From Fimbriimonas ginsengisoli Gsoil 348 (lineage in GTDB: Bacteria; Armatimonadota; Fimbriimonadia; Fimbriimonadales; Fimbriimonadaceae), in the NCBI RefSeq assembly GCF_000724625.1, contig NZ_CP007139.1, forward strand, positions 3,100,001-3,164,000: a stretch of DNA of 64,000 nucleotides. The letters are read 5' to 3'. Both the position numbers and the translations under genes were made by a program. This document shows, in pieces, positions 2,988 through 59,933 of this stretch. The notes below the pieces were generated by a model that did not search any database, had not been told where the DNA came from, and saw nothing but the letters and a program-made list of their open reading frames with translations. Within the stretch, counting starts at the first letter, position 1. Every line of letters begins with the position of its first letter.

Positions 2988-3446
2988 ATGGCGCCCGTAT
3001 CGGCATCTCCCCGCATAGGACAGAAGCGAGCAATAACCGGCTTTGGAGTGGCGATGCTATTCCTGCTGGCCTTCGCAATATTTTGCTATCTGAATTTTAA
3101 GACGGTGGAAGTGTCGGGACGCTCGATGTTTCCCACTTTCAAGAGTGGACAGCACGTTCTCGTAAGCAGGGCTTACTGGCTCGTGGGGCCGATCAAAGAT
3201 AACGACGTGGTCGTCCTTACCGACACCGGTCCGACCGGCTATATCATCAAGCGGGTCATGTGGTCCGCAGGCGAGACGGTCAACTGGAAATGGGCGCCCG
3301 AAAATTACGACATCAGAAAGGGTCCTTTTGTCGTTCCACCGGGTTGCGTCTACGTCCTCGGCGATAACCGTCCGGAATCGGAGGATAGCCGGAAGTTCGG
3401 GCCACGAAAGGTCGAGGAGATCCTAGGTAAGGTCCTCGTCCGGTGA
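2988..3446 (+). CDS. lepB: Signal peptidase I
   Basis: This membrane serine protease (family S26) removes signal peptides from exported proteins. Counting from ATG 2988, one membrane helix spans about residues 17-37. The catalytic Ser is S46 in SGRSMFPT, the general-base Lys is K88 in YIIKRV, and the conserved box GDNRPESEDSRKFGP lies at about 125-139. At 152 residues it is a short, Gram-positive-like form. ATG 2940 is an alternative start that adds 16 residues, but it overlaps the ATG of the divergent DUF4446 gene. The 3' end overlaps the NUDIX gene by GTGA, so the two are translationally coupled. Confidence 0.92.
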   Translation: MAPVSASPRIGQKRAITGFGVAMLFLLAFAIFCYLNFKTVEVSGRSMFPTFKSGQHVLVSRAYWLVGPIKDNDVVVLTDTGPTGYIIKRVMWSAGETVNWKWAPENYDIRKGPFVVPPGCVYVLGDNRPESEDSRKFGPRKVEEILGKVLVR

Positions 3447-18095: not shown

Positions 18096-21000
18096 GCCTT
18101 AGCGATTGGGCCGCCCGCTCGATCAAGCCGATCCTCTTTACGGTGATCGTGCTCTGCCTCATGGGCATCTTCGCCTATCGGACCTTCCCGGTCTCCATCC
18201 TGCCCGACGTCAGCTTCCCGCGGGTCGTCGTCATCGCCTCCGCCGGCGAGCGCCCGGTCCAGATGGTCGAAGCGGCGATCACCCGCCCCCTCGAAGAAGC
18301 GCTCGCTACCGTCCCCAACGTCCATCGCATCCGCTCGCGGACGAAGCGTGGCTCCACCGAAATCTCCATCGACTTCAACTGGGGCGCCGACATCCTCGTT
18401 GCCGAGCAGCTCGTCAACGCGAAAGTGAACGAGGTCCGCCCGGAGCTCCCGGCCGATGCCCGCACCGAGACGGAACGGATGAACCCGACCATCTTCCCGG
18501 TTCTCGGCCTCACCCTCGACTCCAAAGGACTCAGCCCGACCGAGCTCTACAACCTCGCCACTTACTCCGTCCGCCCAAGGCTCGCCCGAGTCGAAGGCGT
18601 CGCGCGCGTGGTCGTCCAAGGTGGCCTCGCCCCCGAAGTGCTCGTGGAGGTGGACCCCGCGCGACTGCGCTCCGCTCGCCTTAGCATCGTCGACGTCACA
18701 CAGGCGCTGACTCAGTCGAACCTGGTGGCCGCGGTTGGCCGGGTCGATCACCAATTCCAGCAGTTCCAAGTCCTTGTCGACGGGCAGGCCGTCGATACGG
18801 AAGCCCTGAGCCGGATCGTGGTCGCCCAACGCAACGGCGCTCCGATCGAGCTCCGCCAGATCGCCACCGTCCGAAATACCGCCGAAGATCGGCTCACCGT
18901 CGTCTCCGCGAACGGCCACGAATCGGTGCTGATCAACATCATCCGGCAGCCCACCGCCAATAGCGTCGCGATGGCCGATGCGGTCAAGGCCGAGATGCTC
19001 CAGCTTCGGTCGTCGCTCCCTCCCGGGGTCAAGCTCGGCATCTTCTACGACCAGTCGATCCTCGTTAACGACGCCATCCAGAGCGTCGGCGAGGCGGTCC
19101 TGATCGGCGCCGTCCTCGCCGTGGTCGTGCTCCTCCTCTTCCTTAGAGATCTTCGCGCCACCCTCGTCACCGCTGCCATCATTCCGATGACGGTGTTGGT
19201 CACGTTCCTCCTGATGCGCGCATCCGGGCTAACGCTAAACCTCATGACCCTCGGCGCTCTCGCCGTCGGAATCGGCCTTGTCATCGACGACGCCATCGTC
19301 GTCGTGGAAAACGTCTTCCGCCATCTCCCTAGCGAGCCAGACCTCCGTTCCGCCGTCCGGGCCGCCTCCGGAGAGATCGCGAAGCCGATGATCTCCTCGA
19401 CCCTGACCACGGTCGTCGTCTTCCTCCCGCTCGCCCTTCTCGAAGGGGTCGCCGGCGCTTTCTTCGCCGCCCTCGCCATCACCCTTACCCTCGCCCTCCT
19501 CGTCAGCCTTGTCCTCGCCCTCACCGTAAGCCCCAGCCTCTGCGCCGGATTCCTTCGTACCACCAGCAACCACGGCCAAACCCGCCTCTACGGCCGCGTT
19601 CTGAACGGCTACGAGAAGCTGCTTCGCTGGGGTGTCCGCCACCGCTGGCTCGTGCCCGTCGCCGGAGTCGGCCTGCTCGCGGCGACCTTCTTCATCGCCA
19701 AATTGCTCGGCTCGGGATTCATGCCCGAAATGGACGAAGGGGCTTTCGTGCTCGACTACCTGACCCCTCCCGGAACCTCCCTCGCCGAAAGCGACCGCCT
19801 TCTCCGCAAGGTGGACCAAATCCTCCTGAACACCCCCGAAGTGGCCACCTTTTCGCGCCGAACCGGCACCGAGCTCGGCTTCGCCATCACCGAGCCGAAC
19901 CGAGGCGACTACGCCGTCATGCTCAAGCCGCACCGGAGCCGAAGCATCGACCAAGTGATCGAAGAGGTTCGGGGGCAGGTCGAGTCCGGCGTCCCCGGCC
20001 TCGAAGTCGAATTCATTCAAGTTCTCCAAGACCTCATCGGCGACCTCGCCGGCGAGCCCGCTCCCATCGACGTCAAGCTGTTCGGCGAAAATCAACAGGA
20101 GCTGGAACGGCTCGGCCAGGACCTCGCCGAACGGCTCGGCAACGTAAAAGGGCTCGCCGACCTCAAGAGCGGCGTCGTCGAAGCCGGCCCCGACCTTTCG
20201 CTCCGCGTCGACCCCGCCAAGGCCGGCCGTCTCGGCCTCACCGCCCAGACGGTCTCCGAGCAGGCCGAAGCCGCCCTCCTCGGTACCGTCGCGACCCAAA
20301 TGCTCCGCGGAGACCGGCAGGTTCCGGTCCGGGTGCGATACCCCTCCGCCATTCGCCTCGACCTCGACGCTGTCTCGAACGTGCCGATCACGACCCCCGG
20401 CGGAGCCACCGTCCCGCTTGGGTCATTGGGCGTCCTCGAAAAGCGCTTGGGTAGCACCGAATCCGCCCGAGAAGACCAGCGCCGAGTCGTCGACGTGACC
20501 GGCCGCCTCGATAACGTCGACCTCGGAACCGCCATCGCCGGCGTTCGCAAGGTCCTTGCCGATAAACCCCTTCCGCCCGGGGTTTCCGTGGTGCTGGGTG
20601 GGCAATATCAGAGCCAAACCCAGTCGTTCCAAAACCTCGCCGAGGTCCTCGCCCTCGCGATCCTGCTGGTCTACGCCGTAATGCTGTTCCAGTTCGGCTC
20701 GTTCCGCGCGCCCACCGTGATCCTGCTCGTCATGCCGCTCGGCCTCTTTGGCGCCGTCCTCGCCTTGTGGGCCACCAAGACGCCGCTGAATGTCTCCTCC
20801 TTCATGGGCGCGATCATGCTCGTCGGAATCGTCGTCAAGAACGGGATCCTACTGCTGGATCGCGCTCAGGAAGCGGAACGAGCCGGGATGTCGACCGTGG
20901 AGGCCGTCGTCGACGCGGGCCGCCAACGCCTGAGGCCGATCTTGATGACGAGCCTCACCGCGATCCTCGGCCTCTTTCCCCTCGCCCTCGGCCTCGGGGC

Positions 21001-22686: not shown

Positions 22687-22760
22687 TGTACTTTCGGTAC
22701 GGCGGATCATCGGCGAGGGCGCCGACGCTACGTGGTGGAGAATCGGCGGGGGCGGCGACG
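22687..22760. repeat. Family A hairpin repeat, reverse copy plus partial copy
   Basis: GGATCATCGGCGAGGGCGCC followed by GACGCTAC is the reverse complement of the family A core. It is preceded by a GTACTTTCGGTAC hairpin and followed by a second truncated copy ending GGCGACGCTAC. It sits between two convergent genes. Confidence 0.8.
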
Positions 22761-26823: not shown

Positions 26824-27392
26824 AGCTTCCAACCGGAAAATCCGGCTTCTACTTTATCGCATGTCCGCCCGAACCGCTCCGATGGTAGCATCGGCACCTT
26901 GCCGATGAACCCCCGGAGTGACAGGGTGCTGGCGTGTCGAGGTGTTAAGGCCGAAGGGATGGGCAACGGACCTCTAACGCCAACCCCGCCAGAGGCATCC
27001 CGACCGCGGAACGGTCTTTAGAAATTAGCCCCGGGTCAGCAGACCCGGGGAAGAGAGGCCGTCTGAACCGACCCCGGAGCGGGTCGCAGAACCTACCGCC
27101 TGTGCCAGACGACCTTGTATAGAAAGCCGAAGGGGCTTCCTAACGCATTCTTGGTCACGAGACGAAACGCACTCGCGCAGGTACGAGCCAACCTGCGGCC
27201 ACAACGCTTCGCGTTAGGAGGCAGCCGGAAACTGGGTGACGTCACTAACAAGACTAAGCTCTCGTAGTCTGTCAACACGGAGGCCACCCTCGCGGCGACC
27301 AAGTTGCGCTTGGCCGTAGGCACGAAATACAGTTGCCCAAGGCGCGACACTCCACATGGAAACCGCCCGCCCCGGTTATAATCGCTGCACGC
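26824..27392. repeat. Intergenic region with three repeat families, no gene seen
   Basis: This 569-bp divergent region holds a short family A fragment at 26881-26920 (GGTAGCATCGGCACC), a unit at 27003-27043 (GGTCTTTAGAAATTAGCCCC then GGGTC hairpin) that also occurs at 37391-37420, and a family B unit at 27151-27218 (GGTCACGAGACGAAAC then CGCAGGTACGAGCCAACCTGCGG). The family B unit closely matches 59866-59933. Open frames here are short and repeat-derived. Promoters for tricorn and the 27393 gene must lie here, but I could not place them. Confidence 0.6.
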
Positions 27393-31402: not shown

Positions 31403-31718
31403 CTTTGTTCTTCCTTGTCAAGCGGCGACGCTGCCGCGGATCTCCTTCGATAAAGAAGACACTAAATGGTACCTCCAGCGTTCGAAGTCGACTCTCCAGC
31501 GCGTCCTTATAGGTCCAATGATGGGTCAGACGGGCGGTTTCAGTAGGGCTACGCTTAGTTGAGATGGTGTAGCCGCAGGTTGGCTCGTACCTGCGCGAGA
31601 GCTTTTCGTCGTAGCGTCGGCGCCCTCGCCGATGATTCCGGTGCACCTTCCGTACGCCGGGCGCAGGTACGAGCCAACCTGCGGCTACAACGCTTCGCGT
31701 TAAGCGCCGACGCTTCCC
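31403..31718. repeat. Inverted B-A-B repeat composite in a 316-bp gap
   Basis: At 31570-31702 two inverted family B hairpins (AGCCGCAGGTTGGCTCGTACC and CGCAGGTACGAGCCAACCTG, then CAACGCTTCGCGTTA) flank a family A unit (GTAGCGTCGGCGCCCTCGCC). The same modules occur in a different order at 59765-59933. The remainder, 31403-31569, holds nothing I recognise. The block lies directly after the ABC permease stop. Confidence 0.8.
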
Positions 31719-36043: not shown

Positions 36044-36163
36044 TTACTTTGACTTTGCGGTGTCGCTTTTCTTGTTGACGACCGTCGTCGAGGTGTCCGC
36101 GGGCGCACTGGAGCACCCGACCAGAATGGCGGCAAGCGCGAAGAGAAGGAGGGCTCGCGTCAT
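36044..36163 (-). CDS. Very small lipoprotein (39 aa), pilin module 1
   Basis: The gene reads MTRALLLFALAAILVGC, a lipoprotein signal with Cys17, then a 22-residue Ser/Thr/Lys mature part. The ATG overlaps the TGA of the pseudopilin gene upstream (ATGA), which supports translation. Comparable mini-lipoproteins follow the two other pseudopilin genes. Function unknown. Confidence 0.75.
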   Translation of the reverse strand: MTRALLLFALAAILVGCSSAPADTSTTVVNKKSDTAKSK

Positions 36164-36966
36164 AGCTTGACTCGGTCCCGGGTGATCATATCCGCCACCT
36201 GCCCGCACGGAACCCCTTTCCCGTATCCACCGTTGCGCTCCTGAATCGCGTCCACGTTGTAGCAGTACTTCTTAATGTCGTTCCCATTCTCCGGCATGAT
36301 GTCGAAGTCGTCCCCGTCGGCGAGGAAGGAGTAGCGGGACATTTTGATCGTCTTCGCGTGTCCATCGACGAACGCCATCGGATACTGTCCGCCGTGTCGC
36401 AAGGCGGAAACGCCGGTACCGTCACCGGTCTGGAAGTAGAACGACAGGGTGTACATATTGGTGTCGTTCGTTGCTCCTGCCATGATCGTATCGGCCGGGT
36501 GGGCGAAGTCGCTACCGTTCCGGCCGCGCCAACGGGAGCTCTCGGGGAACTCGGGCGCATCCGACTCGGCTAGGTGGAAGATGCCGTTGCCGTTGTTGTA
36601 GCTGTAGATGCCGAAGTTCGGGGCAAACCCGAGGCAGCGGCCGGTCGGGTCGACCGAGGTGTCGCAGCCCCTGCGGGTCCGCGTCGGATCGTAGAAAATC
36701 TCCCGATTCTTAACGTACGGCTGGAGAATGTATTGAAATTCACCCCGATCGTTAAGAGCGTCGTCGTTTCGCTGCACCAAGAACGTGTCGTCGTTGTCGG
36801 TGTTGTACATGATGAACGACAGCGCAAACTGCTTGCAGTTGCTGACGGCCTGAGTCTTCTTGGCCGCAGCTTTGGCTTGGGCAAAAACCGGGAAGAGGAT
36901 GGCGGCCAAGATCGCGATGATCGCGATGACGACGAGAAGCTCGATGAGCGTAAAACCTTTCTTCAT
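36160..36966 (-). CDS. Pseudopilin, DUF1559-like, module 1
   Basis: A type IV prepilin leader MKKG is cut before [18 protein letters not shown], with Glu5 of the mature protein kept; the helix continues [13 protein letters not shown]. The globular part has paired cysteines (RRGCDTSVDPTGRCLG) and the H-x9-DG motif in RHGGQYPMAFVDGHA. It would be inserted in the inner membrane and processed by a prepilin peptidase encoded elsewhere. It has 268 residues. Its stop overlaps the mini-lipoprotein start. Confidence 0.9.
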   Translation of the reverse strand: MKKGFTLIELLVVIAIIAILAAILFPVFAQAKAAAKKTQAVSNCKQFALSFIMYNTDNDDTFLVQRNDDALNDRGEFQYILQPYVKNREIFYDPTRTRRGCDTSVDPTGRCLGFAPNFGIYSYNNGNGIFHLAESDAPEFPESSRWRGRNGSDFAHPADTIMAGATNDTNMYTLSFYFQTGDGTGVSALRHGGQYPMAFVDGHAKTIKMSRYSFLADGDDFDIMPENGNDIKKYCYNVDAIQERNGGYGKGVPCGQVADMITRDRVKL

Positions 36967-37139
36967 GATAATTACACCGCTGTAAAGACGGGGGCCAGAT
37001 TAACCTCCACCTAAGTTAGGTGGAGGTTAACGACACCTTGTCCGTCAAGTCAAACTCGGCTCTTTCCGAATTTGACCCGGTGCAATTGTAAAGCGACAAA
37101 CGCCAAAAATCTTAACAATTCGACGATTTTTGTAGGAGA

Positions 37140-37280
37140 TCACTTTTCGCCATTTTCCCCGCGATTGTGCGAGGCTTTGGCGTTGCGGGCCCACTCAGCC
37201 TCGCCGGAGCTGCCTGATCCACAGGCAGCTACCGACAAGACGAGCGAAGCGAGGAGCACGAACTTCAGCATTTTCATCAT
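37140..37280 (-). CDS. Very small lipoprotein (46 aa), pilin module 2
   Basis: It reads MMKMLKFVLLASLVLSVAAC, a lipoprotein signal with Cys20, then 26 charged residues (GSGSSGEAEWARNAKASHN). It lies 282 bp downstream of pseudopilin 2 on the same strand, with repeats in between. The pattern matches modules 1 and 3, though the wider gap makes cotranscription less certain. The exact start among the clustered ATGs is uncertain. Confidence 0.65.
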   Translation of the reverse strand: MMKMLKFVLLASLVLSVAACGSGSSGEAEWARNAKASHNRGENGEK

Positions 37281-37562
37281 TTGTTGACCCATCGCAGCGT
37301 CTCGAAGGATTTCCGACATGAAATCGGTCCCGGTAAATCGACTCGGGGCCCAGATCTAACGGCCAGAATCACCCGCATCGCGACCCCGGAGGGGTCTTCA
37401 GAACTTAGCCCCGGGTCGACGACCAGGGGTTGAAGCGCCACCACCTTTCCCGACCCCGACAGGTGGTCGAAGAACGCCCCAACTCCCCACGTGGAGGAGG
37501 GAGTTGGGGGAGTTCGATAGATCTGAAAAGACAGGCCCGTAGGCACTCGCAGATTTCCTGCC
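37281..37562. repeat. Intergenic repeats between pseudopilin 2 and its lipoprotein
   Basis: The segment 37381-37420 (GACCCCGGAGGGGTC hairpin, then AGAACTTAGCCCCGGGTC) matches 27003-27043. A GGAGGAGGGAGTTGGGGGAG stretch near 37493 resembles family C. No gene seen. Confidence 0.55.
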
Positions 37563-38486
37563 CTAGTTCGTGAAGTAACAAGCCGAGGACGGATTGTTGC
37601 CGCACGGCGACGTGATGTTGTCGACGATCCACTGCATAAAGTCGCCGCAAGCGAGCGCCGGCGGGCGAGGCGATGTGTTCAAACTCGACGTGCTGCCGTC
37701 CTCCGGAACGAGGATCGCGGTCGAATCGGAGCAGTAGGCTCCGCCCCACTGCTTGGCGTCGCTCGGCATGATCCAGCGGTTATTGAAAGCTCCGGGGAGA
37801 ATGCCGCCCCGAACCTTTAGCGCCTTGGCGTGACCGTCGAGGTAAGCGTAGTTGAACGAGCCGCCGTACCGCAGCTCGTGATTGCTGAAACCGTTGAAGT
37901 CATCTCCCGAGAAGCCGATTCCAACCGTTGCGCGGGGCGTATCGTAGGTGTCGCCGAAGACGAACACCTTGGCCGGCTCGCTTACGCTGGTGGCCGACTT
38001 GCCACGGTTCATGCTGCCCACCGCGGTCTGGGCCTCCAGCAGTCCGCCGCCGCGCCAGCCAAACGGTCCCCAGTTATAGCCATAGGCCGACAGTTTTTTG
38101 GCGCCGAACGATTGCCGGTACTGAGCCGAGTTAGACGTGGAGTTCGGGTTCTCCAAATCGTTCCGCTCGCTTGAGTAGATCAGGTCGATGCTCTTGAAAT
38201 ACGGGTAGAGCGGAATCCACCACTCGATGCCGCAACCGACGAATTTCTTCTGCGTGTAGTCGCAGTTCGCGGGGTCCGTGGTTCCCCAGATGGAGACGGT
38301 TGTATCGTCGTTGTCACCCAGGTAGATCTGGTTGGCGGTACCGAGCTGCTTCACGTTGGAGAGCGAGCTGGTCTTCTTCGCCGCAAGCTTGGCTTGGGCA
38401 AAAACCGGGAAAAGGATGGCAGCGAGGATCGCGATAATGGCGATCACGACGAGAAGTTCAATCAAAGTAAAAGCTCGGCGTTGCAT
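37563..38486 (-). CDS. Pseudopilin, DUF1559-like, module 2
   Basis: The prepilin signal is MQRRA before [18 protein letters not shown]; the residue before the cut is Ala instead of the usual Gly. The helix ends [13 protein letters not shown]. The globular domain (307 residues in all) has four or more cysteines ([22 protein letters not shown]) and the DG motif in [15 protein letters not shown], with Tyr in place of the usual His. Predicted to be inner-membrane anchored after processing. Confidence 0.9.
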
Positions 38487-38610
38487 ATGAGACTCCGTGG
38501 CATGCTCAGATTCACACGCGATCGTTTACGGTGGGTTAAGCCTTCAAAACGCTAACAATCGGCCGGTCGACGGGTTAAGACCGTAACAAAAACATTCGCC
38601 CACCAGGTTC

Positions 38611-38640
38611 GAACCACGCCTGAAAAGCGGCCAGGCGTGG
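38611..38640. terminator. Possible terminator hairpin
   Basis: A stem CCACGCCTG / CAGGCGTGG with a short inner loop lies between the module 3 lipoprotein and the pseudopilin 2 promoter region. There is no clear T-run, so it may be a weak or factor-dependent terminator. Confidence 0.4.
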
Positions 38641-38652
38641 CGCGAACTGAAA

Positions 38653-38847
38653 CTATTTCTTAGGCTTCCAGCCTTTGAAATCGGCAGCGATCCTATCGGC
38701 CTGTTCTTTCGGAATGTTCTGGGTCACCTGGGACGGCTTTGTCTCTTCGGCGACGTCCTTTGGTCCACACCCGTGCGCCGCCGCCACCGAAATGGCGGCG
38801 GCGACGAGGCCCAGATCGGCTAAGAGTCGAACGGGTCGTTTTCTCAT
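38653..38847 (-). CDS. Small lipoprotein (64 aa), pilin module 3
   Basis: A basic N-terminus (MRKRPVR), a hydrophobic stretch and Cys27 in AAHGC give a lipoprotein signal. The mature part has a helical segment (IPKEQADRIAADFKGWKPKK). ATG 38847 begins one base after the TAG of pseudopilin 3, so the two are surely cotranscribed. Function unknown; it parallels modules 1 and 2. Confidence 0.75.
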   Translation of the reverse strand: MRKRPVRLLADLGLVAAAISVAAAHGCGPKDVAEETKPSQVTQNIPKEQADRIAADFKGWKPKK

Positions 38848-38848
38848 G

Positions 38849-39673
38849 CTACCAAGGGGTTCGGTTGGCCACGATGTAGGCGTTGATGTCGCCGCACTTC
38901 ATGCCGGTAAAGGGCGAGCCGGCGCCCGTCGGAACCGTCTCGACCGCGTCGAGCGAACGGCACAGCATATTGGCGTCCGTCAGGCTCTTCGGCATCTGGA
39001 TATAGGTTCCCATCAGGTTGTAGGCGCCGTAGAAAACGGTCTTGGCGTGGCCATCCACAAATGCCCGCACCCACCGCCCGTCGTTGCGCGGCGTCTTGAG
39101 GTGGCCGTCGCCATCCTGGAAGTAGTAGGAGTCGGTAAACATCGGCGTGTCCGCCGTGGTCACCATCATCACCATTTCGGCGGGAGCGTCGAAACTCGTC
39201 ATGCTTCGCCCTTTCCACATTCGGCCCATCTGAGTACCGCCAAACGTGGTCGTGATGGGGAAGTTGTCCGTGGAGGTTTCGAACATTCCGGTTCCGCCGT
39301 TGTAGTCGAAGACGCCGAAGTTCGGCGCGAAGCCGACACAGCGGCCGGTGGGATCGATGTACTGATCGCAACCGGTCCGGGTTCGGTTTACGTCGTAGAC
39401 GATCTGCCGGTTCTTGATGTACGGCTGCCAGAGTCCCTGGGGTTCGCCGTAGTCGTTCAGCGAGTCGTGGTTGAAGTTGCAGCTGAAGTAGTCGTCCGCG
39501 TCGCCCGCGTACATGATGCCCGCGAGCGCGAGCTCCTTGACATTGTTCAGATTGGTGGTGTGCTTCGCCGCGGCCTTCGCTTGGGCGAAAACTGGGAAGA
39601 GGATGGCGGCGAGGATCGCAATGATGGCGATCACGACAAGAAGCTCAATTAGGGTGAATGCTCTGCGCTGCAT
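38849..39673 (-). CDS. Pseudopilin, DUF1559-like, module 3
   Basis: MQRRA precedes [18 protein letters not shown] and [13 protein letters not shown], with Ala before the predicted cut. The 274-residue protein is most similar to module 1: both have [10 protein letters not shown] / [30 protein letters not shown] and a late AFVDGHAKT motif, but here the His of H-x9-DG is Asn. ATG 39673 is chosen; the frame to 39769 adds a leader that would hide the prepilin signal. Confidence 0.9.
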
Positions 39674-40001
39674 AAGTGCCTCCGTACCGCCCTCATCGTC
39701 CACCGTGGGACCGCGCCGGCAGGTTTGCGCAACGTTAAGGATTCCAAACCATAACCCCGGCAAATTCACCGTGTTATGGCCCTAACATTCAACCCTCCGT
39801 AGCGTCGGCGCCCCCGCCGATGATCGCGAACGTTAGTTCGCCCGGGGGCCGGTCTGGAGACCGGCGGTCCTGGGATTTGGTACAATTCAATTATCGCGTC
39901 CAAAGCGCGATGTTATGACAGACCTCAGCTAGTTACCCGGACCGCTTTCTTTTTCCGCCATCCCACGGATGGCTCGGTTCTGCGTTTGGAGGTTTCTGAT
40001 C
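39674..40001. repeat. Divergent intergenic region with A+E hairpin repeat
   Basis: This 328-bp gap holds a family A+E composite at 39797-39873 (GTAGCGTCGGCGCCCCCGCC, then GCCGGTCTGGAGACCGGCGG). The same pair occurs at 42922-42997. A TACAAT at 39880-39885 could be a -10 box for the ABC-F gene, but no matching -35 is clear. Nothing else recognised. Confidence 0.65.
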
Positions 40002-41492
40002 ATGCTACAGGCGTTTGGCCTGTCCTATTCACCCGACCCTCGGGTCGGTCCGTTGTTCGAGAACGTCGATTTCTCGCTCGATCCGGGCGAGAAAGTCGCG
40101 CTCGTCGGACGTAACGGCGCGGGTAAGAGCATCCTGCTTCGCATCCTCGCCGGACGCCTCGCGGCGAGCCATGGCCGGGTCGTCCGCGGTGCGGGTGACG
40201 CGCTCGGCTACCTGCCTCAAGATTTCGAGCAGGGATTCGAAGGGTCTCTCGCCGACCTGTTGGAGCTCACTTCTCCCGATGCGCCTCCCCACGCCGTGGC
40301 GCGGGCGCTGCACCGGCTACGCCTGGATCCTTCCCGCCTTCAACAGCAGTACTCAAGCCTGAGCCTGGGGGAGCGAATGCGAGGCGCATTGGCGGCCTTG
40401 TTGGCAGCCGAGCCCTCGATCTTGTTGCTGGACGAGCCGACCAACCACCTCGACGTTTCCGCCCGGGAATGGCTCGAAAGGTTCTTGTCGACCTGCCCGG
40501 AGGCGGTACTCATCGTCTGCCACGACCGGACCGTCATCAACGCCGTCGCAGATCGCGTGGTCGAGTTGGAGCGAGGCGGCCTCACCAGTTACACGGGAGA
40601 TTTTAACGCGATGGTGGAGGCGAAGCAGCGTCGCGATGCCCGGCAACAAGAGAGCTGGGAACGGCATAAACAGGAAGATCGCCGTCTGCGAATAGCCGCT
40701 GAGGAGACGCTGCAGGTGGCGGCCAAGATGACCCGCAAACCGACCGGGCGTACCTACGATCCCAAGTTCAAGGCGTTCTACGCCGGTAAGCAGGCCCGGC
40801 TGGACAAGCGGGCCAAAGCGATCGTCTCGCGCGTGGAAAAGGGAAGGGAAGAGGCGCCCGAGAAGCCGTACGTGGGGGATGAAGTGACCCTTCGCTTCCC
40901 GACCCGTCCGCTCCGGGCGGCGGAGGCGCTGGCGGGGCGACGTTTAAAGAAGTCGTACGGAGGGCGCTGTCTCTTCGACAACCTAAACGTCACCCTGCTC
41001 CGCGGCTCGCGCATCGCGGTGGTCGGACCCAACGGCGCGGGCAAGACGACCCTCTTCCGCCTTCTCTTGGGCGAGGAGTCGCCCGATGCCGGGGAAGTGG
41101 TGTGGGCTTCCGATGCTAAAGTGGCGACTCTGTCGCAGGCCCGAGACGCCCTGAATCTCGAGTTGCCCGCTATTCGGGCGCTCGAGCCGGAGAGTTCGGA
41201 GGAGGACCGTTTCGCCCGCACCGCTCTCGCCCGCCTCGGACTCCGAGGCGAGGCCGCCGATCGCCCGGTCGGCGTGTTGTCAGTCGGTGAGCGGACCAAG
41301 GTGGAGATCGTCTCGATGCTCCTCTCCAGCGCCAACGTCCTCCTGCTCGACGAGCCGACGAACCACCTCGACCTGGTCTCCGTGCAAGCCCTGGAGTCGG
41401 CGTTGATGGAGTTCCCAGGCGCCATCCTCTTTACCTCGCACGATAGGTCGTTTGTGGAGCGGGTGGCGACGGAGGTGTTGGAGCTCGCTTAG
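40002..41492 (+). CDS. ABC-F family ribosome-associated ATPase
   Basis: Two ABC domains and no membrane helices: Walker A GRNGAGKS and GPNGAGKTT, signatures LSLGERMRGALAAL and LSVGERTKVEIVSML, Walker B LLLDEPTNHLD twice. The inter-domain linker (about 225-300) is long, basic and helical, as in proteins that reach into the ribosome. ABC-F proteins rescue stalled or drug-blocked ribosomes; whether this one gives antibiotic protection or acts like EttA/Uup cannot be told. ATG 40002 has GGAGG 9 bases upstream. It has 496 residues. Confidence 0.92.
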   Translation: MLQAFGLSYSPDPRVGPLFENVDFSLDPGEKVALVGRNGAGKSILLRILAGRLAASHGRVVRGAGDALGYLPQDFEQGFEGSLADLLELTSPDAPPHAVARALHRLRLDPSRLQQQYSSLSLGERMRGALAALLAAEPSILLLDEPTNHLDVSAREWLERFLSTCPEAVLIVCHDRTVINAVADRVVELERGGLTSYTGDFNAMVEAKQRRDARQQESWERHKQEDRRLRIAAEETLQVAAKMTRKPTGRTYDPKFKAFYAGKQARLDKRAKAIVSRVEKGREEAPEKPYVGDEVTLRFPTRPLRAAEALAGRRLKKSYGGRCLFDNLNVTLLRGSRIAVVGPNGAGKTTLFRLLLGEESPDAGEVVWASDAKVATLSQARDALNLELPAIRALEPESSEEDRFARTALARLGLRGEAADRPVGVLSVGERTKVEIVSMLLSSANVLLLDEPTNHLDLVSVQALESALMEFPGAILFTSHDRSFVERVATEVLELA

Positions 41493-41505
41493 GGTCAGCT
41501 TCCCT

Positions 41506-41714
41506 TATCCCGAAGGGATTGCGTCCCCTAGCGAACTGTAGGACCCCGCGTAGCGGAGTCCTACCCCGGTACCGGGGCCGCCAATCTCATCAACCTCGAA
41601 GAGGTTGCGTCCGGACGCAACCTCTTCGAGGTAGGAAAGGTGTCTGTCGCCGATACCAGGGTAACCCGCGGGAGCGGGTAACCCTTCGCTAGGGGACGTA
41701 ATCCCTTCGGGATA
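41506..41714. repeat. Complex nested palindrome with long outer arms
   Basis: Outer arms of 30 bp (41506-41535 and 41685-41714) are inverted copies with one mismatch. Between them lie a GTAGGAC / GTCCTAC hairpin, the perfect palindrome CCCCGGTACCGGGG, a perfect 40-bp palindrome at 41593-41632 without a loop, and a GGGTAACCC pair. It sits between the convergent ABC-F and MFS genes. It resembles a multi-branched mobile repeat or strong terminator; no transposase is present. Confidence 0.85.
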
Positions 41715-41741
41715 GGGGGGCGGAACCAGGATGATTGCCCG

Positions 41742-42902
41742 TCAAGTGCCCGTGTCCAGCGTGGCCGCCGCTCGGCGGCTGTTCATTGCGATCGCAAGGC
41801 AACAGAAGGCGATCAAGCCTAAGGCGAACGCGAGCGAAGTCCGGTCGGCGATGTAGCCGACGATGGGGGGGCCGCCGAGGAAGGCCGTGTAGCCGAGAGT
41901 GGTCACCGCCGCAAGGCCCGAACCGGCGGCGAGACCGGGGAGGGTGGCGGCGGCGCGGAAGAGGATGGGGACCAGATTCGCAAGTCCCAGCCCGGTAAGG
42001 GCGAAGCCGACGATGGAAAGGGGGACGCTCGCGAGATTCACGGCGAGAAGCAACCCCGCGCCGGTGAGCAGGGCGCTGTCGCGCAAGACGCGCCGGTATC
42101 CAGAGCGGTGGGTCCAGGAGTCTCCCAAAAATCGTCCGACCGCCATCGAAAGACTCGCCAGGCCGAAACCGAACGCCGCGATCTCGGTCTTCGCGTGCAG
42201 GGCTTGGCGCAGATAGACCGCGCACCAATCCCACATCGCTCCCTCGCTCGCGAGCGCCAAAAGAACGAGGATTCCGAGCATGAGGACGGCCCCTTTCGGC
42301 AGAGCGAAGCGAGGTCCCTCCCCTTCTTTGTCGATATCGGACGGAAGCATCGCGGCGACGCCGGCCACGAGCACCCCGGCTAGCAAGATGGAGGCGACGA
42401 TCATGTGTACCGGCGGGCTTACTCCGAGTCGAGCCGCCAATGCGGTACCCGCCCCTCCGGCGAAGCCGCCCACGCTGAACCAGCCGTGCATCGCCGATAG
42501 GATCGGTCGAGGAAATCGGCCCTGGACCGACATTGCGTGGGTGTTCATCCCGACGTCGGTTTGTCCGTTCGACGCCCCGACGAGGTAGAGAACCGGACAC
42601 AAGATCCAAAGGCTGGGGGCGAGCATGACGAATGGGAGCACAGTTAGGAGAATCGATCCCGCTCCAAGAGACACCCATCGGCTCCCGAATCGGTGGATCA
42701 GGGATCCCGCCAGCGGCATCGTCGTCATGGCGCCCAGTGCCGAGAAGAGGAGCGCCCGGCCCAACTCGGCGTTCGTGAGGTGAAGCCGGGCCAAGATATC
42801 CGGTAGGTGGGCCACATACCCGCCCAGCCCCGCGCCGTCGACGAAGAAGATCGCGGACACCCCCCACCGGGCACGGCGGTCAGCTTCGGTCGGGCCCCCC
42901 AT
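41742..42902 (-). CDS. MFS transporter
   Basis: Twelve membrane helices in 386 residues. Similar helical pairs and the cytoplasmic loop SLIHRFGSRW (MFS motif A-like) and its second-half counterpart SWTHRSGYRR point to a 12-TM MFS permease of the YbjJ / sugar-permease type. The substrate is not inferable. ATG 42902 is chosen because the frame further upstream is made of repeat DNA. It diverges from the merR gene; the shared intergenic region carries a MerR-type operator. Confidence 0.85.
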   Translation of the reverse strand: MGGPTEADRRARWGVSAIFFVDGAGLGGYVAHLPDILARLHLTNAELGRALLFSALGAMTTMPLAGSLIHRFGSRWVSLGAGSILLTVLPFVMLAPSLWILCPVLYLVGASNGQTDVGMNTHAMSVQGRFPRPILSAMHGWFSVGGFAGGAGTALAARLGVSPPVHMIVASILLAGVLVAGVAAMLPSDIDKEGEGPRFALPKGAVLMLGILVLLALASEGAMWDWCAVYLRQALHAKTEIAAFGFGLASLSMAVGRFLGDSWTHRSGYRRVLRDSALLTGAGLLLAVNLASVPLSIVGFALTGLGLANLVPILFRAAATLPGLAAGSGLAAVTTLGYTAFLGGPPIVGYIADRTSLAFALGLIAFCCLAIAMNSRRAAATLDTGT

Positions 42903-59764: not shown

Positions 59765-59933
59765 GTAGCGTCGGCGCCCTCGCCGATGATTCCGGTGTAC
59801 CTTCGGTACACCAGTAGCCGCAGGTTGGCTCGTACCTGCGTGAGAGCCTCCGAAAGATCCGCATGTTTGGTCACGAGACGAAACACCCTCACGCAGGTAC
59901 GAGCCAACCTGCGGCTACAACGCTTCGCGTTAG
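59765..59933. repeat. Composite A-B-B' hairpin repeat
   Basis: A family A core with a C(UUCG)G-capped hairpin (GTGTACCTTCGGTACAC) is followed by a family B hairpin (AGCCGCAGGTTGGCTCGTACC). After a spacer containing GGTCACGAGACGAAAC comes an inverted family B copy ending ACAACGCTTCGCGTTAG. The last 68 bp match 27151-27218. Confidence 0.85.

Follow-up and report, generated by a model that had tools for sequence, protein, structure and literature searches.

We examined a 64,000-nucleotide stretch of the Fimbriimonas ginsengisoli Gsoil 348 chromosome (NZ_CP007139.1, positions 3,100,001 to 3,164,000), hereafter the window, in which two convergent genes with stops at 41492 and 41742 are separated by a gap of 249 bp. 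From their translations we take the former to encode an ABC-F-like ATPase and the latter an MFS-like transporter. Most of the gap is occupied by a palindromic element (41504-41716) made of two half-units of ~105 bp placed head to head and meeting at 41612|41613, which are 79 % identical as mirror images. Each half-unit contains three hairpins (A, B and D) and runs in the order hairpin A, a GCGTCC or ACGTCC tail, TAGCGAA, hairpin B, GGTA, a spacer of ~20-30 nt, hairpin D and a GCGTCC tail (Table 1). The initial annotation of this DNA described outer arms of 30 nt with one mismatch, and 41506-41535 and 41685-41714 indeed differ at a single base; taken as 34 nt (41502-41535 and 41685-41718) the arms are 94 % complementary. 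The inner inverted repeats that it listed correspond to hairpins A, B and D together with their mirror copies D′, B′ and A′, and the perfect, loopless 40-bp palindrome that it reported is also present, the runner-up in the window being 20 bp long. We infer that this palindrome is a side effect of D directly abutting D′ and does not represent a separate function.

Table 1 Features of the palindromic element, in window positions (R1 and R2 are covariance models described in the text)
Feature	Position	Strand	Evidence
Left half-unit, A-B-D toward the centre	41504..41612	+	R1 E 1e-16 (R1 built with this copy); R2 41505-41615, E 1.1e-7
Right half-unit, mirror order D′-B′-A′	41613..41716	-	R1 E 5e-20 (R1 built with this copy); R2 41610-41713, E 1.4e-11
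Hairpin A, loop GAA, tail GCGTCC 41521-41526	41507..41519	+	Sequence, fold, covariation in 26 relatives
Hairpin B, after TAGCGAA	41538..41564	+	Sequence, fold
Hairpin D, loop GAA, tail GCGTCC 41607-41612	41592..41606	+	Sequence, fold
Perfect 40-bp palindrome, D meeting D′	41593..41632	.	Palindrome scan
Hairpin D′, foot GGACGC 41613-41618	41619..41632	-	Sequence
Hairpin B′	41659..41684	-	Sequence, fold
Hairpin A′, foot GGACG 41694-41698	41701..41713	-	Sequence, fold

Folded as RNA, the + strand of the element has a free energy of -161.5 kcal/mol, whereas its shuffled versions average -90.9 and none of 200 is as low (z -13.3); the - strand gives a z of -13.0. A scan for end-to-end complementarity over 912 windows of 210 bp scored the element at 69, followed by 62 at 59781 and 58 at 31501, each of which holds pairs of another repeat of GTAG type. 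GTAG-headed repeats resembling classical REPs (GTAGCGTCGGCG..., GTAGCCGCAGGTTGG...) occur at window positions 22706, 31611, 39799, 42924, 44499, 55859 and 59765, with inverted pairs at 31568/31661 and 59814/59888. The window also contains, at 27001-27094 and 37381-37477 (+), single three-hairpin units of a further family with a TAGCCCCGGGTC motif (R2 E-values of 2e-3 and 6e-4), and three adjacent genes whose pilin-like products have a prepilin-type start, an apparent local duplication, at 36160-39769 (-).

The element is one member of a repeat family. R1, a covariance model built from 30 half-units of this genome with the window copy included, identified 49 half-units at E ≤ 0.01 (43 at E ≤ 1e-3) in the chromosome, which was searched as a single piece of 5,231,762 bp. 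Single half-units are common, and 16 half-units form eight abutting dimers at 1455425, 2080984, 3141504 (the window element), 3401529, 4412217, 4565767, 4602240 and 4830901. In all eight dimers the plus unit precedes the minus unit, the gap between them being 0 bp in four and 6 bp in four. The dimers are 0.71-0.87 identical to one another, with flanks that resemble random 60-mers (mean 0.61 vs 0.64). The instability of such palindromes, on which the initial annotation had built an argument, can be invoked for the 40-bp centre only, and just one of the eight dimers has a perfect palindrome of this length, the next being 24 bp. The hairpin B loops (loci L009-L024) draw on a few cassettes, such as GCGAGGCACGAGC, that are mixed between left and right halves, with two different ones in seven of the eight dimers; a near-identical cassette was seen in units of other phyla (L080, L084 and L102). 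In two copies (L022 ~3110-3340 and L020 ~3080-3230) the D|D′ junction is occupied by another palindromic repeat, containing AAGGCACAGAGACACAAAG. We found no empty site for the window element: the MFS neighbour occurs in one of 20 genus genomes, namely its own, and had no match in the other 19.

According to a rough codon-usage gene caller, 20 of 21 copies are intergenic (8 between convergent, 9 between tandem and 3 between divergent genes) and one falls within a predicted frame, these 21 including both unit groups adjoining the transposase gene tnpA described below. The proposal that the element serves as a terminator for two convergent genes agrees with the orientation of its neighbours; yet a scan detected no intrinsic (T-tract) terminator in it and the genes on either side of other copies are arranged in tandem or divergently, and we rejected it as an intrinsic terminator. 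A broader possibility is that the element acts as RNA, either as a transcribed 3′ structure that ends or protects convergent messages or as a relative of the Acido-Lenti-1 'sRNA' (RF01687). The very stable fold on both strands, the convergent-gene site shared with other copies and the typing of RF01687 as sRNA in Rfam speak for such a role, which we nevertheless regard as improbable given the missing T-tract and the covariation and RF01687 data set out below; a secondary RNA role after insertion may exist.

The units of the family also flank a transposase gene. The available text of the genome paper on Gsoil 348T counts 12 transposase genes only and no known IS elements (PMC4072686). We found matches to Pfam Y1_Tnp at 13 places in the chromosome. 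tnpA (4494039-4494482) encodes a protein of 148 amino acids with DHVH, WQ and YVENQEEHH (Y---Q--HH) and is bracketed by half-units at 4493772 and 4493926 (plus) on the left and 4494503 and 4494652 (minus) on the right, in the order seen in the dimers. The intact element (~4,493,772-4,494,752) can be written as [A-B-D units] tnpA [D′-B′-A′ units] and the window element as [A-B-D][D′-B′-A′]. Two further tnpA elements, at 2310823 and 18654, have a unit of another type but of the same design. Over 653 bp they are 98.5 % identical, with inverted ends of ~98 bp, and on either side the similarity breaks off abruptly at the foot of hairpin A, beyond which their flanks are unrelated. Neither of these two shows a target-site duplication, which is not expected for Y1 enzymes. 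The many copies at unrelated sites and the matching transposase element support the suggestion in the initial annotation of a mobile repeat.

Not all copies of the gene appear intact. The tnpA copy at 18654-19103 (L030) has a cysteine in place of the catalytic tyrosine, and a tnpA fragment lies between two facing half-units at 1741799-1742419, apparently a decayed full element. Such a fragment, together with the shared order of units in dimers and around tnpA, raises the alternative that each dimer is an in-place remnant of a full element from which tnpA was deleted. Repeated loss leaving the same clean junction (a gap of 0 or 6 bp in all eight dimers) is difficult to envisage, and the many gene-less elements with a common core in Terriglobus albidus (see below) are a further argument against this explanation, to which we give little credence.

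The tnpA products of this genome have DHVH or DHIH, WQ and Y---Q--HH, motif columns that are invariant or nearly so in two alignments of the proteins. The NCBIfam IS200/IS605 model NF033573 (cut-off 55 bits) was exceeded by three of five own proteins, the other two reaching 51 and 43 bits, and was matched by 36 of 36 relatives, and the REP-associated model NF047646 (cut-off 80 bits) gave at most 24 bits in the five own genes. A PDB sequence search with the 148-aa TnpA returned nothing at 0.001. An AlphaFold2 model of a 61 %-identical relative (L073, pLDDT 91.6) had the IS608 and ISDra2 TnpA as its best PDB matches in Foldseek (E 4e-8 to 1e-6), the REP-associated transposase 4er8 appearing at rank 30, and on this model the cognate enzyme is predicted to have the HUH Y1 fold of IS200/IS605. 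By its motifs and its length of ~148 aa we provisionally assign the cognate TnpA to TnpA_Y1 subclass 1.2. Elsewhere in the chromosome, at 1982689, a class-2-like Y1 gene adjoins a GTAG repeat of the GTAGCGTCGGCG type, which suggests that two distinct repeat systems coexist in this genome.

The same end design recurs in other genomes. The protein was present in 16 of 41 genomes of the genus and order, where 23 of 30 readable tnpA genes (duplicate genes removed) show an inverted pair at a score ≥ 46; the pair was weak, absent or ambiguous in L038, L041, L042, L043, L048, L049 and the second gene of L046/L056, and L054 and L060 had no intact frame with the tyrosine motif. A wider scan of GTDB 220, in which each species was represented by one genome, used 25 query proteins and yielded 583 relatives, the best 80 of which, from Verrucomicrobia, Planctomycetes, Armatimonadota, Acidobacteria, Bacteroidetes and others, were used. 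An inverted repeat across tnpA exceeding shuffled and mismatched controls was found in 46 of 78 loci and not in the remaining 32 (~40 %), the flanks of two of the 80 loci being too short. The flanking repeats follow a common design: hairpin A, whose loop is GAA, AAC or AAA, is followed by a short tail, by AGC and by hairpin B, which ends in CCCTGG or a similar sequence and is separated from hairpin D by a spacer. Of 155 near flanks, 86 contained a strict hairpin A, AGC and hairpin B motif, as did 9 of 141 flanks situated 900 bp away; none of 155 shuffles had it. Reading the near flanks the other way round also gave the motif in 24 of them, as expected of partly palindromic units, yet the strand argument is weakened by this.

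To a second covariance model, R2, 26 units from tnpA flanks of Verrucomicrobia, Planctomycetes, Hydrogenedentota and the like contributed, none of them from Armatimonadota. Within these units 98.1 % of pair cells pair. Of the 482 pair cells, 74 show changes on both sides, where shuffles average 14.9, and five on one side only. The scarcity of one-sided changes implies that G-U pairs are nearly absent, which would suit hairpins of DNA better than hairpins of RNA and argues against an RNA role. In the window the top two matches of R2 were the right and the left half of the element, and in the chromosome it found 70 units at E ≤ 1e-3. R1, at the same threshold, identified units next to tnpA with the expected orientation in 27 of the 80 loci (on both sides in 22), with ten more matches beside tnpA facing the other way and 13 elsewhere, and had no matches in three loci of other Y1 genes. 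Across the Armatimonadota phylum (even sampling, stricter filters) R2 identified units at E ≤ 1e-6 in 9 of 151 genomes. Long perfect palindromes are often mis-assembled, and the initial palindrome could in principle have been an assembly artefact or the product of chance; with a fold z of -13, 49 related units in the genome and the same architecture in other phyla, in many independently assembled genomes, we consider either very unlikely.

Within a unit, the tails following hairpins A and D have a mean longest match of 3.19, as against 2.54 for tails of different units (2000 permutations reached at most 2.86, n=100), and the tails of the left and right hairpin A also agree (4.39 vs 2.76, n=33). 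Such agreement is what an element-specific address would be expected to look like. One Armatimonadota genome (G049, L153-L161) contains ~10 tight dimers but we detected no tnpA of the subclass-1.2 kind in it. These dimers are embedded in a larger repeat and their flanks too are common to the copies, and we therefore dropped them as proof of dimer mobility. Another genome (G118) has two pairs in the opposite order.

A link to a catalogued family emerged from the tnpA loci. Acido-Lenti-1 was rated a probable RNA by Weinberg et al. 2010 (PMC2864571, in the text available), and a 2026 paper suggests it, in the portion accessible, as a possible regulator of Tannerella protease genes (PMC13298647); the available text of neither links it to a transposase. 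Among 75 of the 80 tnpA loci (all but L148-L152) RF01687 gave ten matches at gathering score in six loci (L095, L116, L128, L138, L142 and L143), all ten within 165 bp of tnpA, a position that also counts against an RNA role. Its consensus aligns to hairpin B′, the linker and hairpin A′ of the tnpA-flanking units. The window copy lies below the family, as RF01687 (gathering score 37 bits) had no match at E ≤ 1 in window 41000-42300 and Rfam gave only sub-threshold matches to unrelated families on the window.

Six of eight genomes reached via tnpA loci contain RF01687 matches and 14 control genomes contain none. The T. albidus genome has at least 136 (150 of 1726 candidates scored), and both of its full-length subclass-1.2 tnpA genes are bracketed by them (C48:3550-/4146+ and C28:645898-/646490+). 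One tnpA each in G042, G043 (where the match is partial) and G048 is bracketed, and the other tnpA genes of these genomes are unbracketed among the RF01687 matches listed. Among the 110 T. albidus matches listed there are 31 neighbouring pairs ≤ 800 bp apart, all 31 running minus then plus; because RF01687 runs B′-A′, this corresponds to plus then minus in the units and hence to the order of the window dimer. Ten gene-less T. albidus elements are 0.76-0.94 identical (mean 86 %) over ~261 bp, core included, with sharp common ends at AGCGCT, unrelated flanks (0.59) and ends that match those of the tnpA element. These comparisons make it probable that the entry catalogued as an 'RNA of unknown function' is in reality DNA of a transposon.

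We conclude with considerable confidence, on sequence evidence, that the window element is a miniature non-autonomous mobile element in which both ends of an IS200-class HUH tyrosine transposon are joined in inverted orientation without its gene. Several results support this reading: the 49 half-units of the genome with eight dimers in one order and non-matching flanks, the bracketing of tnpA (4494039-4494482) in the same inverted order, the near-identical elements at 2310823 and 18654 with their sharp ends and unrelated flanks, and the ability of R2 and R1 to find units both ways across phyla. To these are added the 46 of 78 loci in which an inverted repeat spans the gene, the ends that gene-less T. 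albidus elements share with a tnpA element and the match between the fold of a relative and the IS608 and ISDra2 TnpA. We infer from them that the family transposes. The transposase would be supplied in trans; TnpA would recognise hairpins A and D by their shape and the shared tail (CGTCC, or GGACG on the other strand) on single-stranded DNA, such as that of the lagging strand, and would cut at the foot of A and A′, so that the end pair moves as one piece. Against the miniature-element reading stand the failure to find an empty site or a target-site duplication, the dimers of G049, the opposite-order pairs of G118 and the 32 of 78 loci that failed the inverted-repeat test. The lack of an RF01687 match to the window element does not fit either. 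Known IS200-class enzymes, moreover, read hairpins on one strand, so that inverted ends are unexpected and likewise count against it.

The main rival is that the half-unit and not the dimer moves, dimers and tnpA brackets having been assembled from independent insertions. The abundance of single half-units suggests that they may move alone, which counts against mobility of the pair, and within a D′-B′-A′ unit two hairpins point the same way and share the 5′ foot GGACG, so that a single half-unit could act as a full left/right end pair comparable to that of an IS200 element. The closer match of A and D tails within units and the mixing of B-loop cassettes in the dimers can be read in the same way. 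Independent insertions would, however, have to explain why neighbours are inverted in one order in all eight own dimers and in all 31 T. albidus pairs among the matches listed, and why whole T. albidus elements, core included, are so alike. We hold this rival to be a minority possibility, about a chance in four in our judgement, and favour movement of the pair.

Subclass 1.2 TnpA_Y1, as described by Quentin et al. 2018 in the text available (PMC6006769), resembles the enzyme studied here in length (~148 aa), in its DH[IV]H, WQ and Y---Q--HH motifs and in an IS608-like fold, and is given as 'no' for REP and as lacking typical IS200 ends. In the loci described here, by contrast, inverted three-hairpin ends flank the gene. 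The main hosts reported for the subclass are Cyanobacteria and Bacteroidetes, and the available main text of that paper names neither Armatimonadota nor Fimbriimonas; the loci sampled here were mostly from Verrucomicrobia and Planctomycetes, and also from Armatimonadota, Acidobacteria and Bacteroidetes. Class 3 Y1 enzymes have atypical flanking structures but a different motif, Y----Q, in the same text (PMC6006769).

REP/RAYT systems, REPtrons, REPINs and BIMEs share with this family extragenic hairpin repeats, inverted pairs and a Y1 gene flanked by the same repeats. They differ in their enzyme, which is of class 2 (Y---NP) and not class 1, in having a GT[AG]G foot where the present family has the foot GGACG and the tail CGTCC, and in a single hairpin of 20-40 bp as opposed to a three-hairpin unit of ~105 bp. 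A classical GTAG REP/RAYT origin was rejected by enzyme class and foot sequence, although the genome also has GTAG-type repeats. CGTC-tagged REPs reported without a transposase, and Y1 genes flanked by TIRs, were described by Di Nocera et al. 2013 in the text available (PMC3733652). A CGTC-bearing hairpin tail occurs in the present family as well, although the two may be distinct repeats; here CGTC lies 3′ of stems of 5-7 bp with 3-nt loops, and the available text places the tag at one end of a hairpin with a stem of 8-9 bp and a loop of 4-5 nt, on an ambiguous strand. The latter, TIRtrons or TIRYT, are likewise Y1 genes with long inverted ends, most of them belonging to subclass 2.1 in the available text of PMC6006769. 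RF01687 differs from the units whose B′, linker and A′ it covers in being catalogued as sRNA. Bacterial MITEs, finally, resemble the family in lacking a gene between their inverted ends, in occurring as many copies scattered over unrelated sites and in having an autonomous relative whose ends match their own. They differ in that here no target-site duplication was seen, the ends are nested hairpins and the enzyme is a single-strand HUH enzyme. At the level of sequence the family has the appearance of a MITE belonging to a subclass-1.2 transposon of the IS200 class. We found no earlier description of these transposon ends in the open-licence literature; prior reports are possible.

We lean, by a modest degree, towards a wider generalisation, namely that these loci represent a widespread type of mobile element, moving as single-strand DNA and not described before, whose subclass-1.2 transposase uses inverted three-hairpin ends, that the A and D tails act as an element-specific address, that pairs of ends without a gene spread as palindromic miniatures and that Acido-Lenti-1 is the B-A part of these DNA ends and not an RNA. 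Subclass 1.2 Y1 transposases, described without REP-like repeats, would thereby gain a candidate substrate. An explanation may also be offered for an Rfam family of unknown function that was still invoked as a possible protease-gene regulator in 2026, in the accessible portion of PMC13298647. The inverted arrangement in turn raises the question of how inverted ends would be handled by enzymes of a family that is known to read a single strand.
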